From Diabrotica undecimpunctata (lineage: Eukaryota > Arthropoda > Insecta > Coleoptera > Chrysomelidae), in contig NC_092809.1 of assembly GCF_040954645.1 (NCBI RefSeq), positions 130,995,914 through 131,059,913 of the forward strand: a DNA stretch of 64,000 nt, read 5' to 3'. Below the pieces are notes generated by a model. That model worked only from the letters and a program-made list of their open reading frames with translations, did no database searches and was not told where the DNA came from. Of the stretch, positions 6,127 through 12,334 are shown in pieces (position 1 is the first letter of the stretch; every line of letters begins with the position of its first letter). Position numbers and translations under genes: made by a program.

Positions 6127-6437
6127 CGTTACGATAAATATACTGGCCTAACTTTTATGACTAATTATTCTGTTTTATTGTAGAAATTTCGGTGGAAGTC
6201 TAGATTCAAATTATGGTGAATTCTCCAACTTGATGTTCTCGACTATTCCAGTATATCAGGATTTCGTATATAAATACGACATTTTTATATGGAGGGCCAG
6301 TTAATACTCAAGACCCGCGCTCGCGAATTTGTACGTACGGATATAATAAATTATTGTCAGATAAGTTAATATAAATAAAGAAATAAATTAAATCCGTAAG
6401 TGTTATAAATATTGAACCTTTTAATAAATCCACAACA
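6127..6437 (+). repeat. 5' LTR
   Basis: 311 bp, matching 12024-12334 at every position except the first. It ends ...CCACAACA. The canonical TG start is CG here, TG in the 3' copy. A TATA-like motif lies at 6267-6276 and AATAAA polyadenylation signals at 6374-6379 and 6382-6387, giving a U3-R-U5 layout. Confidence 0.95.
6267..6276 (+). promoter_or_regulatory. LTR TATA box
   Basis: TATATAAATA in the middle of the 5' LTR, with a plausible start site around 6295-6305 and AATAAA signals ~75-100 bp further on. The equivalent position in the 3' LTR is 12164-12173. Inferred from position and sequence only. Confidence 0.55.
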
Positions 6438-6439
6438 AA

Positions 6440-6457
6440 TGGTGTCAGAACAGTGGA
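6440..6457 (+). other. Primer-binding site, probably tRNA-Leu
   Basis: TGGTGTCAGAA begins two bases after the 5' LTR. It is complementary to a tRNA 3' end TTCTGACACCA, which from memory is typical of eukaryotic leucine tRNAs; the match weakens after 11 bases. Position just inside the LTR is correct for minus-strand primer annealing. Confidence 0.65.
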
Positions 6458-6514
6458 ATACTTAAGATAAATTGCGAAAATAAATTACAAGTGAATATAA
6501 AATAAATTGTGAAA

Positions 6515-9500
6515 ATGGCTACGATTTATGAGCTGACAGTGACTAATTTAAGAAGACATCTTGAAGACAGAGAATTAGCTTCCACCGGAAAAAAGGCTGA
6601 GTTAGTCCAACGACTAAAGAACGCTTTGCTAGAAGAAGGACTAGATCCAGAGACTTATATATTTGAAGATGCTGTCCTCTCGTCGATTTCGAAAGTTTCT
6701 GGTGATGTAGCCAAAGTTTCTGGTGATGTAGCCAAAGTTTCTGGTGATGTAGCCAAAGTTTCTGGTGACATCGCATCATTAGAGAACAAAGTTTCCGGTG
6801 ATATCGCATCATTAGAGAACAAAGTTTCTGGCGATATTTCGAAGGTTTCCGGCGACATCGCTTCTTTAGAAAGCAAAGTTTCTAACGAGATTTCTTCCCT
6901 GGAAAGCAAAGTTTCTGCTAACATCTCTTCAGAAATCTCTAAAGTCACTTCTGAGATGTCTGCCCTGGACGATAGAATATCTTCGTTAAAAAACCAAGTT
7001 GCTGCCGATAAGTTGGCCTTCGAAGAAAAGATTAAAGAGATGGAAAGGAAGATGGAAGAAACAGGGACAGCAGAGAGAGGTAACAATCCGATTACAGTGG
7101 AGATAAAAGAAGACGAGACGAAATTTAAGTTGGAGACACGGCCGAAATTTGAAGGAAGTGGAGGTTCTATTCATGTTAAAGTCCCAACTTTCGACGGAAA
7201 ATCATCATGGAACAACTACATGAAACAGTTCGAATCAGCCGCAAGAGCAAATGGATGGTCTGAAAAAGAAAAGGCGGTAAACCTGACTATCGCTCTTCGA
7301 GGAGATGCCTTAGATGTGCTTCAGACCATAGCCGTAGAGGAGACCGATGATTTCGAACAACTCAAGAAGAGGCTAAATATGCGATATGGCCACGAACATT
7401 TGGAGCATGTTTATCAGTCACAGCTTAAAAATCGTAGACAGAAGAAAGAGGAGGCTCTTCAAGAATATGAGGTAGATATTGCCAGATTAGTACGATATGC
7501 TTATCCAACAGCTCCCGAAGACATGATGGAAAAATTGGCCGTTCAAACGTTTATTGATGGTCTTCGTGATCATGAAATGCAGAGAACACTGCGATTAGCT
7601 CCTCACAAGACGCTGGTTGATGTCCTATCCGCCGCCCTCGAATACGAGTCAGCTACGCAGGCCTCTGGCGGGTACAGTAAAGTTAGGACTGTAAAAGAGG
7701 AAGGAGATGAAGATAAACTTGACCAGCTCGTTAATATGATGAAAAGTATTACATGCAAGAAAACGAAGACCATAAAATCAAGAAACTCAACATCAGGAAA
7801 ACCAGAACGAGTCGGCTTTAGGGGAACAGCTTCGACCCGGAACTTTTCCAAAGATCCTCTTGTACTAATAGCTTCTTTGAAATGTCGTGAGGATAGTGTA
7901 TATGTAGATGGAGACATAAATTGTAAAAAGCATACGTTGTTGGTGGATACCGGAGCGACCAGAACCATTATACGCCCGACAGTTATAAACAGCCGAAAGA
8001 AACTGTTACCAACGAGGTTGCGACTTCGGACCGCTACAGGTGAAAATGCTAACATTCATGGAGAAATCCAGGTACAATTGGGAATTGGATCAGAAAAGTT
8101 CGTCCATACTGTTATAGTTGCTGACATCGAAGAGGATGTTATATTAGGAATGGACGTAATGAATATGCATGGATTCCAATTGGATTTTAAGAATAAGGTG
8201 ATCAAAGTTGGCAACGAGGAGGTATTTCTCCATCCACATAATGACAACACTGTGCAAGCAGCCATTACAGAAGATACAGTCGTGCCTGCGAGAAGCGAAA
8301 CGATCATAGTAGCGCGACTACAGGGAATTGTAGACGAAGGGACACCTGTTATGATGGAGCCTTGGAACCACGACGATGAGGTTGGCCGTGGAATCATAAT
8401 TGGAAAGGAATTGGTGACTTCGGCTAAAGAAATTCCTGTGAGACTTATCAATGTCAACGACTACCCAGTGACCATCAAGAAAGAGACAAAGGTAGGAACT
8501 TGTATACCTGTGACATCCATAATCCGTCAGGCGACAACATCTGATAATTCCAACGACAAATTCGACCAAATGGTTGCAGTTGCAGGACAGTCTCTAAATC
8601 AGATGGAGAAAAGGAAATTAAGGGAATTTCTTCGGCAGTATCGTGATATTTTCGTACCGAAAGGAGGAAAGACGGGAAGAACTACCGTTGTCAAGCATAA
8701 AATTGATATTGGTAATGCTAAGCCAATTCGTCAAACAGCTCGACGATTACCACAGGCGAAGAGAGAGGAAGCTGAAACGATTGTTCAGGAAATGAAGAAA
8801 GACGGGGTGATAGAACCTTCTACGAGTCCATGGGTCTCTCCGGTGGTCCTGGTTAAGAAGAAAGACGGAACGACGAGGTTCTGTGTAGATTACCGTTTGC
8901 TGAACAACGTTACCAAGAAAGATAGTTATCCTCTGCCTCGGATCGATGACACATTGGACACATTGGCTGGAAGTAAATTGTTTTCTACTTTAGATTTGAA
9001 GTCTGGATACTGGCAGGTAGAAATGGACCCAGTCGATAAAGAAAAGACAGCCTTCACCACAGGATCTGGATTGTGGCAATTCAACGTTATGCCATTTGGA
9101 CTTTGTAATGCTCCTGCGACATTTGAGAGGCTTATGGAAAATGTGTTGAGAGGGTTATCTTGGAAAACATGCCTGGTTTATTTAGATGACATAATCGTCT
9201 TGGGGGAGACATTCGAAGATCATTTGAGGAATTTAGAAAACGTTTTTAATCGACTTAAAGCTGCCCAATTGATGCTAAACCCCAAGAAGTGCCAGCTATT
9301 TCAAGGTAAAGTCAATTATCTGGGTCATATAGTCAGTAAAGAAGGAGTGGCCGTGGATAAGGGAAAAATCGATTCCATTAAGGAATGGCCAAAACCAACT
9401 GACAAACATCAAGTGAGAAGTTTTCTTGGACTATGTACTTACTACCGGAGGTTTATTAAGAAGTTTGCAGATATCGCTAAGCCATTAACGCGACTTACAG

Positions 9501-12034
9501 AGGAAGCAAGAGAATACCGCTGGGATATAGACTGCCAAAATGCCTTTGAAACGTTGAAAAAGCATTTAATAACAGCACCAATTTTGGGGTATCCACTGCC
9601 AGAAGGAGAGTTCATCTTAGATACGGATGCAAGTAATGTGGGAATTGGAGGAGTGCTGTCTCAGATTCAAGGAGGACAGGAACGAGTCCTCGGATATTTT
9701 AGTAAAGTTCTTTCAAAACCTGAGCGGAATTATTGCGTCACGAGAAGAGAACTTCTAGCAGTAGTTAAATCAGTAGAGCACTTCTATCAATACCTCTATG
9801 GCAGAAAGTTTCTAATCCGAACCGACCATGCCGCCCTTAAGTGGTTGATTCAGTTTAAGAATCCAGAGGGTCAGATAGCCAGGTGGATCGAACGACTCCA
9901 AGAATACGATTTTAAGATTGAGCACCGGGCCGGAGTTAGCCACAGAAACGCTGATTCTCTTTCCAGAAGGCCATGCCCAGCAGAGTGTTCCCACTGCAAC
10001 AAAACGGAATCCAAGGAAGCAGCAGTGCTAAGAACGACGATTGTCAACGACGACTGGACGCCTACTAAGATAAGGGAAGAACAAGAGAGAGATCCAGTTA
10101 TACAGAAAATCCGAAAATGGAAAGAGGAAAACCGTCGACCACCTTGGCAGGAAATATCAAACCTATGCTCAGTAGTTAAGACGTATTGGGCCCAGTGGGA
10201 CTCATTTATCATCGAAGATGGCTTGCTCAAACGAGTCCTGGAAAATGATGACGGTTCAGAGAAAAGAAGACAGTTGGTGATCCCAAAGAGCAGAATAGCC
10301 GAAGTACTTCGTCAGTTACACGACAGTCCATCGGGAGGGCATTTTGGTGTAAGGAAAACCCTTCAGCGAATTCGGGAACGGTTTTATTGGATGAACAGTT
10401 CCGACGACGTAAAAGACTGGTGTAAGAAATGTACTATTTGTGCTACGAGTAACGGGCCTCACCGGAAAAGGAGAGCTCCTATGAGACAATATAATGTTGG
10501 AAGCCCGTTTGAAAGAATAGCTTTGGACATTGCAGGGCCATTTCCAGAAAGTGAAAATGGGGGCAAGTACATGTTGGTAGTAATGGATTACTTCACTAAG
10601 TGGGTCGAGATTTATGCACTTCCAGACCAGAAGGCCGCCACCGTTGCAGATAAGTTGATCCAAGAATATATCAGCCGATTTGGAGTGCCTTTGGAGATCC
10701 ATAGTGACCAAGGCAGGAACTTCGAAAGTGATCTATTCCAAGGAATATGTGATAGACTAGGCATGAAGAAAACAAGAACTACCGCGTATCATCCGCAATC
10801 GGATGGTATGGTAGAACGAATGAATAGGACAGTTGGCAAGTATTTGACAAAGATGGTGTCCGATCATCAGCGAGATTGGGACCAATACCTTCCGTTCTTC
10901 ACAATGGCCTACAGATCTGCTGTTAACGAATCAACGGGCCAGACACCAGCCAGAGTCCTATTCGGACGCGAAATGCGACTACCTTGTGATCTAGAATTTG
11001 GGTGTCGACCTGGAGAAGATGTAGCAGGTGAAGATTATGTGATCGAATTACGAAGAAGAATGGACGATGTACATGAGTTGGTCCGTTCCCACCTTCAGAT
11101 TGCTAGCGACCGAATGAAGAAACGGTACGATACACAAGCCGAAAAGGGTTGCTTTAAGAAGAACGACAAAGTATGGCTGTATAATCCCAAGAAGCGAAAA
11201 GGTTGTTCTCCCAAATTGCAGCAGTTTTGGCAAGGTCCATACCTCATCATGGAGAAGATCAACGATGTCATCTACCGAATAAGCAAGATTCCGAGGGGAA
11301 AGCCGATGATAGTACACCATAACCGGTTGGCATCTTTCGAAGGTGACCACGACGTAGATGAAGAAGTGGAAGTAAACCAAGTCCAAGATGTGTCTGACCT
11401 CACGTTTGAGGAATTCATGGGTGCCTATGGAGGTACCGGTAAAGCGAGACATGGTGTTACCACTGAAGAAAAGCAAGATCTACTCGCGCTCCCCGATGAC
11501 TACTCGCTGGCCCTTACCATCCCGGCCAGTATCAAAGACGCACCAGGGTTGGCATCCGTCTTTCGAAGGAAGTTTGGTCGAGTTGCAGAACTTCAATGCC
11601 AAGTGCCAGCTCCCGGTAAAACCTTGAAACTCCAAGATGCATCACGTTACCTTTTCTACCTGGTAACAAAAGACACTGCCCGTGACCAACCTACCTACCG
11701 AGATGTATGGGAAGCCTTACTTCAATTGAGAGGGCACGTACTAGAGTCCGACGTGCAAAAGTTAGCCATGCCAAAGTTGGAGTGCCGCCAATTAGATTGG
11801 AGGGTTATCCGAAATATGGTGGAGGAGATCTTTAAAGACACCGAAGTCCAGGTGTTAGTCTGTTGCAATCCGCATAGTTACTGGTGCGGAGAGAAAACCG
11901 TCCCTTGTCATTTTTATACAACTGGAAGTTGTAAAAGAGGGTCCAGTTGCCGATACCAGCATACAGTTCCGGTTCCAGTCCCGACAAGGTTCCAGGAGGA
12001 ACCATCTTTTAAGAGGGGGGCAATGTTACGATAA
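6515..12034 (+). CDS. Gag-Pol polyprotein with SAP, macrodomain and CCCH finger
   Basis: Single ORF of 1839 codons. Start chosen at ATG 6515 (AAAATGG context); a reading from 6509 would need GTG. Domains by residue: SAP-like motif 5-40; 7/11-residue coiled-coil repeats ~60-190; Gag ~223-385, without CCHC knuckle; aspartic protease with LLVDTGA (D478) and ILGMD; RT ~730-960 with FSTLDLKSGYW, MPFGLCNAPATF and YLDD at 889-892; RNase H ~1033-1115 (TDAS, D1038); integrase H2C2 (H1269, H1276, C1303, C1306), catalytic D1338, D1398, E1434, and GPY/F at 1571-1576. The tail is extra: residues ~1653-1783 resemble the TARG1/OARD1 macrodomain (PGLA...RRKFGRV, YLVTK with K1719, AMPKLEC, LDW with D1761), then a CCCH finger C1798-C1806-C1812-H1816. 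Gag and pol are in one frame. The stop lies 9 bases into the 3' LTR. No stop or frameshift, so it is probably functional. Confidence 0.93.
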   Translation: MATIYELTVTNLRRHLEDRELASTGKKAELVQRLKNALLEEGLDPETYIFEDAVLSSISKVSGDVAKVSGDVAKVSGDVAKVSGDIASLENKVSGDIASLENKVSGDISKVSGDIASLESKVSNEISSLESKVSANISSEISKVTSEMSALDDRISSLKNQVAADKLAFEEKIKEMERKMEETGTAERGNNPITVEIKEDETKFKLETRPKFEGSGGSIHVKVPTFDGKSSWNNYMKQFESAARANGWSEKEKAVNLTIALRGDALDVLQTIAVEETDDFEQLKKRLNMRYGHEHLEHVYQSQLKNRRQKKEEALQEYEVDIARLVRYAYPTAPEDMMEKLAVQTFIDGLRDHEMQRTLRLAPHKTLVDVLSAALEYESATQASGGYSKVRTVKEEGDEDKLDQLVNMMKSITCKKTKTIKSRNSTSGKPERVGFRGTASTRNFSKDPLVLIASLKCREDSVYVDGDINCKKHTLLVDTGATRTIIRPTVINSRKKLLPTRLRLRTATGENANIHGEIQVQLGIGSEKFVHTVIVADIEEDVILGMDVMNMHGFQLDFKNKVIKVGNEEVFLHPHNDNTVQAAITEDTVVPARSETIIVARLQGIVDEGTPVMMEPWNHDDEVGRGIIIGKELVTSAKEIPVRLINVNDYPVTIKKETKVGTCIPVTSIIRQATTSDNSNDKFDQMVAVAGQSLNQMEKRKLREFLRQYRDIFVPKGGKTGRTTVVKHKIDIGNAKPIRQTARRLPQAKREEAETIVQEMKKDGVIEPSTSPWVSPVVLVKKKDGTTRFCVDYRLLNNVTKKDSYPLPRIDDTLDTLAGSKLFSTLDLKSGYWQVEMDPVDKEKTAFTTGSGLWQFNVMPFGLCNAPATFERLMENVLRGLSWKTCLVYLDDIIVLGETFEDHLRNLENVFNRLKAAQLMLNPKKCQLFQGKVNYLGHIVSKEGVAVDKGKIDSIKEWPKPTDKHQVRSFLGLCTYYRRFIKKFADIAKPLTRLTEEAREYRWDIDCQNAFETLKKHLITAPILGYPLPEGEFILDTDASNVGIGGVLSQIQGGQERVLGYFSKVLSKPERNYCVTRRELLAVVKSVEHFYQYLYGRKFLIRTDHAALKWLIQFKNPEGQIARWIERLQEYDFKIEHRAGVSHRNADSLSRRPCPAECSHCNKTESKEAAVLRTTIVNDDWTPTKIREEQERDPVIQKIRKWKEENRRPPWQEISNLCSVVKTYWAQWDSFIIEDGLLKRVLENDDGSEKRRQLVIPKSRIAEVLRQLHDSPSGGHFGVRKTLQRIRERFYWMNSSDDVKDWCKKCTICATSNGPHRKRRAPMRQYNVGSPFERIALDIAGPFPESENGGKYMLVVMDYFTKWVEIYALPDQKAATVADKLIQEYISRFGVPLEIHSDQGRNFESDLFQGICDRLGMKKTRTTAYHPQSDGMVERMNRTVGKYLTKMVSDHQRDWDQYLPFFTMAYRSAVNESTGQTPARVLFGREMRLPCDLEFGCRPGEDVAGEDYVIELRRRMDDVHELVRSHLQIASDRMKKRYDTQAEKGCFKKNDKVWLYNPKKRKGCSPKLQQFWQGPYLIMEKINDVIYRISKIPRGKPMIVHHNRLASFEGDHDVDEEVEVNQVQDVSDLTFEEFMGAYGGTGKARHGVTTEEKQDLLALPDDYSLALTIPASIKDAPGLASVFRRKFGRVAELQCQVPAPGKTLKLQDASRYLFYLVTKDTARDQPTYRDVWEALLQLRGHVLESDVQKLAMPKLECRQLDWRVIRNMVEEIFKDTEVQVLVCCNPHSYWCGEKTVPCHFYTTGSCKRGSSCRYQHTVPVPVPTRFQEEPSFKRGAMLR
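6692..6940 (+). repeat. In-frame 21/33-bp coding repeats (coiled coil)
   Basis: Units of 21 bp (KVSGDVA) and 33 bp (KVSGDIASLEN) run head to tail from 6692 to about 6940. The first three 21-bp units are identical. Seven- and eleven-residue periods are the heptad and hendecad periods of coiled coils. Identical neighbouring units point to recent expansion by slippage or unequal exchange. Confidence 0.9.
12011..12023 (+). other. Polypurine tract
   Basis: AAGAGGGGGGCAA lies directly before the 3' LTR, the expected site for plus-strand priming. It also encodes the last residues of the polyprotein. Confidence 0.85.
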
Positions 12035-12328
12035 ATATACTGGCCTAACTTTTATGACTAATTATTCTGTTTTATTGTAGAAATTTCGGTGGAAGTCTAG
12101 ATTCAAATTATGGTGAATTCTCCAACTTGATGTTCTCGACTATTCCAGTATATCAGGATTTCGTATATAAATACGACATTTTTATATGGAGGGCCAGTTA
12201 ATACTCAAGACCCGCGCTCGCGAATTTGTACGTACGGATATAATAAATTATTGTCAGATAAGTTAATATAAATAAAGAAATAAATTAAATCCGTAAGTGT
12301 TATAAATATTGAACCTTTTAATAAATCC

Positions 12329-12334
<6 letters not shown>
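12024..12334 (+). repeat. 3' LTR
   Basis: Begins TGTTACG and ends CCACAACA. Matches the 5' LTR at 310 of 311 positions. Contains the stop codon of the gag-pol ORF at 12032-12034, so the terminal codons depend on the LTR. Confidence 0.95.

Follow-up and report, generated by a model that had tools for sequence, protein, structure and literature searches.

The 64,000-nucleotide window analysed here, positions 130,995,914 to 131,059,913 of contig NC_092809.1 from the leaf beetle Diabrotica undecimpunctata, carries at 6127–12334 a long terminal repeat (LTR) retrotransposon of the Ty3/Gypsy (Metaviridae) type, identified as such by its LTRs and by the order protease, reverse transcriptase (RT), RNase H, integrase, and its polyprotein extends behind the integrase into a macrodomain of the TARG1 type followed by a CCCH zinc finger. 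All coordinates given for the element are positions within this window, on the plus strand, and the family to which the window copy belongs is referred to as family A. The reading favoured, because the domain is constrained without the catalytic pair of TARG1, is that the macrodomain serves as an ADP-ribose reader, tethering the integrase-bearing complex to chromatin or proteins of the host that are ADP-ribosylated, a proposal put forward tentatively, its chances being judged a little under even.

Identity and predicted fold of the tail

The open reading frame had been read, from the letters alone, as running on past the integrase GPY/F stretch into a tail of its own, and a single uninterrupted frame extending to 12034 confirmed this. 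When the tail was compared with the PDB using phmmer, the top match was human TARG1/OARD1 (2eee; E = 1.2e-22; query residues 5–145 of 158), a value that rules out a chance pattern as the explanation of the likeness, and profile comparison of the macrodomain with TARG1 gave 2.7e-35. The domain so delimited occupies residues 1654–1784 (11474–11866), in agreement with the TARG1/OARD1 macrodomain that the sequence-only reading had placed at ~1653–1783, and structure prediction, proposed there as a check on the fold, yielded a model closest to TARG1, with 34% identity over the domain. On these sequence comparisons and this predicted fold the tail is assigned as a macrodomain of the TARG1 type. The Pfam Macro model gave no match to the window tail at E ≤ 1, and matched the sister tails P0005, P0027 and P0033, each under its cut-off. 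The CCCH finger had likewise been located correctly, residues 1798–1816 (11906–11962; C-x7-C-x5-C-x3-H) matching Pfam zf-CCCH (E = 7.8e-7) at 29.3 bits against a cut-off of 20.5.

TARG1 Asp20 has a role in ADP-ribose binding, and its equivalent, the Asp of a QDL motif, was invariant in all nine aligned rows. The window domain has APGLA as the counterpart of the TARG1 GAGIA stretch, and its catalytic loop is shortened. Catalysis by TARG1 uses Lys84 and Asp125, as described in the relevant passages of PMC9411070 and PMC7050489, in the latter of which residue 125 is written as Glu. Of the two catalytic residues implied in the sequence-only reading, K1719 (11669–11671) did fall at the Lys84 position, where lysine was present in every one of the 57 copies of family A that were kept, but D1761 aligned with human Gln128 and was thereby ruled out as completing a TARG1 active site. 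The loop PKLECRQLDW (11771–11800), identical in 54 of these 57 copies and differing by one residue in the other 3, has two residues missing and no Asp at the Asp125 position, which the alignments place either in a gap or opposite an Arg of the window domain. Since Asp125 is absent in family A, the domain is classed as TARG1-type and not as a TARG1 enzyme.

Copies, families and selection on the macrodomain

A search of the 1.74 Gb genome with the tail gave 5946 candidates at first look; the 150 matches that were listed and scored were 99–100% identical and contained no stop. A 24-mer lying just upstream of the macrodomain occurred, as exact matches, 2115 times in the genome, some of these probably in fragments, and the possibility that the tail is private to this copy was thereby ruled out. 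The genome contains a further family, family B, with a tail 42–45% identical to that of family A and a 24-mer of its own that occurred 558 times, probably again including fragments. The check suggested at the outset, whether the tail occurs beyond this copy, showed it to be common to family copies and to other beetle elements.

Variation was assessed in the first 60 listed pattern matches for each family, all on one contig (C1) and chosen independently of the macrodomain sequence; copies were kept when aligned over at least 95%, which left 57 of 60 for family A (3 dropped) and 51 of 60 for family B (9 dropped). Macrodomain changes present in at least three copies were predominantly synonymous (S) as opposed to nonsynonymous (N) in both families (family A: N 2, S 11, omega 0.06, p = 1.8e-5; family B: N 9, S 18, omega 0.17, p = 6.8e-6), while family B singletons (N 83, S 25, omega 1.12) behaved as in drift after insertion. 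The low omega values of shared variants in both families indicate that the macrodomain was maintained during the spread of the elements; it is under purifying selection as they multiplied, though neither family keeps the catalytic pair, family B having Arg at position 84 in all but one of 51 copies (50) and, at position 125, Asp in 46 and Glu in 4. These pattern-based samples replaced an earlier family B sample of 49 loci, biased in having been picked by protein similarity, for which omega was 0.11 in the integrase part and 0.15 in the macrodomain.

Captured host fragments occur in LTR elements, and on that precedent the tail could be a piece of a host gene taken up by one copy and carried without function. 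Such a neutral passenger is most improbable: it is contradicted by the omega of 0.06–0.17 for shared variants, and is further opposed by purifying selection in two families, by large copy numbers, and by the occurrence of the arrangement in elements of Aromia, Gonioctena and Diabrotica.

Relatives, and probable origin and loss of the catalytic pair

A profile search for relatives of the macrodomain returned 90 proteins. Integrase p58_C plus macrodomain, mostly with the CCCH finger, was found in proteins of Aromia moschata, Gonioctena quinquepunctata and Diabrotica virgifera, as well as in further samples; p58_C was listed for P0040 and scored under the cut-off in P0033. The same search indicated host-type OARD1 proteins in many insects, host-type here denoting rows without integrase or CCCH, part of them metagenomic. 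When the piece from RT to tail was used as the protein query, one match, P0012, was obtained among 421 candidates. The host's own OARD1-like gene (L049, 1024–3075, minus strand) lies in a frame of 683 residues that is 48–49% identical to human TARG1 and retains both catalytic residues. The L049 protein matched no Pfam family at E ≤ 0.01; a second, weaker macrodomain-like stretch is present in it at residues 576–671, and a similar doubling was seen in several host-type insect proteins.

The macrodomain tree, comprising 62 rows, is unrooted and its bootstrap is not yet settled; left out of it were rows of fewer than 95 residues, P0046, P0070, P0071, P0089, P0090 and P0091, 17 Aromia near-copies that keep the catalytic pair, and P0004. 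It separated 21 element rows plus two Nilaparvata lugens rows from 39 host-type rows (bootstrap 85; Shimodaira–Hasegawa-like approximate likelihood ratio test, SH-aLRT, 97), and is consistent with a single event in which an ancestral element took up an OARD1 gene of the host type. The two N. lugens rows (P0007 and P0068), named OARD1-like, may be element remnants or a domesticated copy; P0007 is without the CCCH finger and P0068 stops before it.

Residue states were read from the alignment, that of the window row being entered by hand. Both Lys84 and Asp125 were present in 39 of 39 host-type rows, while among the 23 element-side rows kept, Lys was found in 20, Asp in 15 and both in 13. The pair was kept in none of the nine rows of the branch holding families A and B, as against 13 of 14 rows elsewhere on the element side. 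Within that branch the lysine alone was found in family A and five kin, the Asp alone in family B and P0025, and neither residue in P0032; position 84 is Arg in P0025 and P0032 as it is in family B, and the tree requires at least two changes of the pair. Presence of the pair in nearly all other element-side rows, and its absence across the A/B branch, suggest that the ancestor probably had it and that one branch lost it; an ancestral cleaving activity would then have given way to binding.

Possible roles of the macrodomain

Under the reader proposal, the macrodomain would pick out host proteins or nucleic acids that bear ADP-ribose and, if the tail is taken as still joined to integrase after processing, the integrase-bearing complex would be held at ADP-ribosylated chromatin or proteins, while the CCCH finger, judging from its family, may add a contact with RNA or other nucleic acid. 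Tethering is proposed because the macrodomain stands at the place that the chromodomain occupies in chromoviruses. Anti-defence and targeting to chromatin, the two roles raised in the sequence-only reading, are likewise conjectural.

Several observations weigh against this proposal. According to the account given in PMC9411070, DarG, which has the lysine only, and SCO6735, which has neither residue, still cleave DNA-linked ADP-ribose. That the domain may bind ADP-ribose and not cleave it, as suggested in the sequence-only reading, agrees with the missing Asp125 and is not proven, since DarG cleaves with lysine alone. Even ADP-ribose binding could, on the sequence, be lost, given APGLA in place of GAGIA and the shortened catalytic loop. 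Family A singletons (N 39, S 23, omega 0.60, p = 0.038) leave their neutrality unclear, and from the macrodomain end through the CCCH finger no clear constraint was detected in variants of at least three copies (family A: N 5, S 0, every change falling in the linker; family B: N 5, S 4). Identity between the window copy and P0012 was 93% in RT, 86% in the integrase core, 73% in the linker before the macrodomain, and 68% in both macrodomain and CCCH finger, so that by these comparisons the tail, macrodomain included, evolves faster than the enzyme domains; the macrodomain was no more alike than the preceding linker in 4 of 6 comparisons (P0012, P0013, P0027 and P0026), the reverse being found for P0022 and P0001.

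The faster change than in RT would suit a domain whose fold is kept for stability, packing or nucleic-acid contact in the integrase region with ADP-ribose not involved, as would the absence of the catalytic pair from all nine rows of the A/B branch and the altered loop opposite GAGIA. Such a scaffold is considered rather unlikely, the invariant Asp of the QDL motif and the retention of Lys84 plus Asp125 by 13 of the 14 other element-side rows both speaking against it.

Because DarG and SCO6735 cleave without the full pair, loss of Asp125 need not end cleavage, and K1719 acting without it might remove ADP-ribose from protein or from nucleic acid (the element's RNA or cDNA ends), shielding the element from PARP-type marking. 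An eraser of this kind is given about one chance in four: family B has Arg in place of the lysine in almost every copy yet its macrodomain is under purifying selection, P0025 and P0032 also have Arg, and the loop that bears Asp125 is shorter in the window domain; young copies are in any case little informative on a single codon. A change of TARG1 residue 125 leads to a covalent intermediate, as reported in the relevant part of PMC7050489, and a covalent trap is conceivable in that the family A state is close to that mutant. A broader proposal, likewise given about one chance in four, is that an insect Ty3/Gypsy lineage captured a TARG1-type eraser behind its integrase and that one branch rebuilt the active site (sisters Lys/Asp, family A Lys only, family B Asp only), the product being a counter-PARP device that works either as a nucleic-acid de-ADP-ribosylase or as a covalent ADP-ribose trap. 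If true, insect hosts and retrotransposons would be contending directly over ADP-ribosylation.

ADP-ribosylation is known to be contested between RNA viruses and their hosts. Why ADP-ribose handling would pay for an element may be suggested by flies without PARP-1, in which, on the figures given in PMC7712786, eight mobile elements changed significantly, five up and three down, and ten more, nine of them of the gypsy superfamily, were up without reaching significance at the false discovery rate applied, effects that the authors allow may be indirect. With a macrodomain behind integrase that selection has kept in two families of high copy number, a single purified domain would be enough to test directly whether ADP-ribose is read or erased by retrotransposons.

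Comparison with known systems

With TARG1 (OARD1, C6orf130; ALC1-like class) the window domain shares its predicted fold and the equivalents of Lys84 and Asp20; it differs in lacking Asp125, in the loop two residues shorter, in being part of a retrotransposon polyprotein and in the CCCH finger after it. The family A domain resembles DarG in having the lysine without the Asp (DarG state as given in PMC9411070), whereas DarG, 24% identical to the window domain, is an antitoxin paired in an operon with the enzyme DarT, a bacterial toxin.

Chromoviruses are Ty3/Gypsy elements with a chromodomain behind integrase, and the window element is like them in carrying a captured chromatin-related domain at the integrase C terminus; here, however, a macrodomain and a CCCH finger make up the module, and the Pfam search of the pieces covering integrase and tail matched no chromodomain behind integrase at E ≤ 1. 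The best viral match in a BFVD fold search was VP8 of Kadipiro virus (E = 8.1e-15, 31% identity), with no named retroelement among the 50 rows listed, many of them nameless. Kadipiro virus is an insect-associated reovirus. VP8 is comparable as a TARG1-like predicted fold in a virus, differs as a protein of another kind of virus, and possibly represents another capture of such a domain. A 2009 study, as cited in PMC4977317, described macro domain proteins as encoded in certain retroviral sequences of fish; these too are retroelements carrying a macro domain, but are there described as vertebrate retroviruses with an additional open reading frame and not as a fusion behind a Ty3/Gypsy integrase. 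No report of a macrodomain in an LTR or Ty3/Gypsy retrotransposon, or fused to integrase, was found among the open-licence papers listed, partly judged by title, which does not show that none exists.

Among insect gene models labelled ADP-ribose glycohydrolase OARD1-like, some (P0003, P0004 and P0008) look like pieces of these elements and not host genes. In the D. virgifera gene model P0009, the element tail comes first and is followed, by eye, by transposase-like sequence.

Organisation of the element and its copies

The element is inserted in an AT repeat. Its LTRs, each of 311 bp (6127–6437 and 12024–12334), differ at one of 311 positions, the first base. Direct reading identified a primer-binding-site-like stretch just 3' of the 5' LTR (6440–6460), to which no tRNA was matched, and a polypurine-tract-like stretch directly before the 3' LTR (12011–12023). 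The frame as listed runs from a GTG at 6509 to 12034; from the ATG at 6515 the single Gag-Pol frame of this copy (6515–12034) comprises 1839 codons plus stop, its last codons and stop falling within the start of the 3' LTR.

A Pfam search on four pieces of the polyprotein located, ahead of the tail, a SAP domain at the Gag N terminus (6533–6628; 5.9e-7, 29.4 bits against a cut-off of 23.9), Retrotrans_gag (7286–7570; 5e-8), an aspartyl protease (7904–8164; gag-asp_proteas, 4.1e-10), RT (8852–9334; RVT_1, 2.4e-39), RNase H (9521–9907; RT_RNaseH / RT_RNaseH_2), the integrase zinc-binding and core domains (10280–10795; Integrase_H2C2, 1.4e-21; rve, 7e-14) and the C-terminal integrase module of the GPY/F region (11234–11332; Integrase_p58_C, 2.7e-13). 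A SAP domain also opens the Gag of the Aromia relative P0044 (1.1e-8). In the window Gag it is followed by KVSGD-type repeats, whose number may account for the spread of frame lengths among copies.

Two Gag-Pol forms occur in both families. Among the 150 matches listed, 60 were of a split form, with a frame of 1403–1425 residues, Gag ending in a CCHC knuckle and Pol in another frame, and 69 of a fused form, including the window copy, with Gag and Pol joined in a frame of 1760–1850 residues. The boundary was read in three split and three fused copies of family A and in one of each in family B. In fused copies the knuckle is lost or damaged (window 7700–7900; L059–L065), in family A by a deletion of ~65 nucleotides and in family B by other small changes. 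The CCCH finger might substitute for the lost knuckle in fused copies, and these might be self-mobile. One further copy (G000:C6:82032814-82033419) lies inside an open frame of 3518 residues, about twice the usual length.
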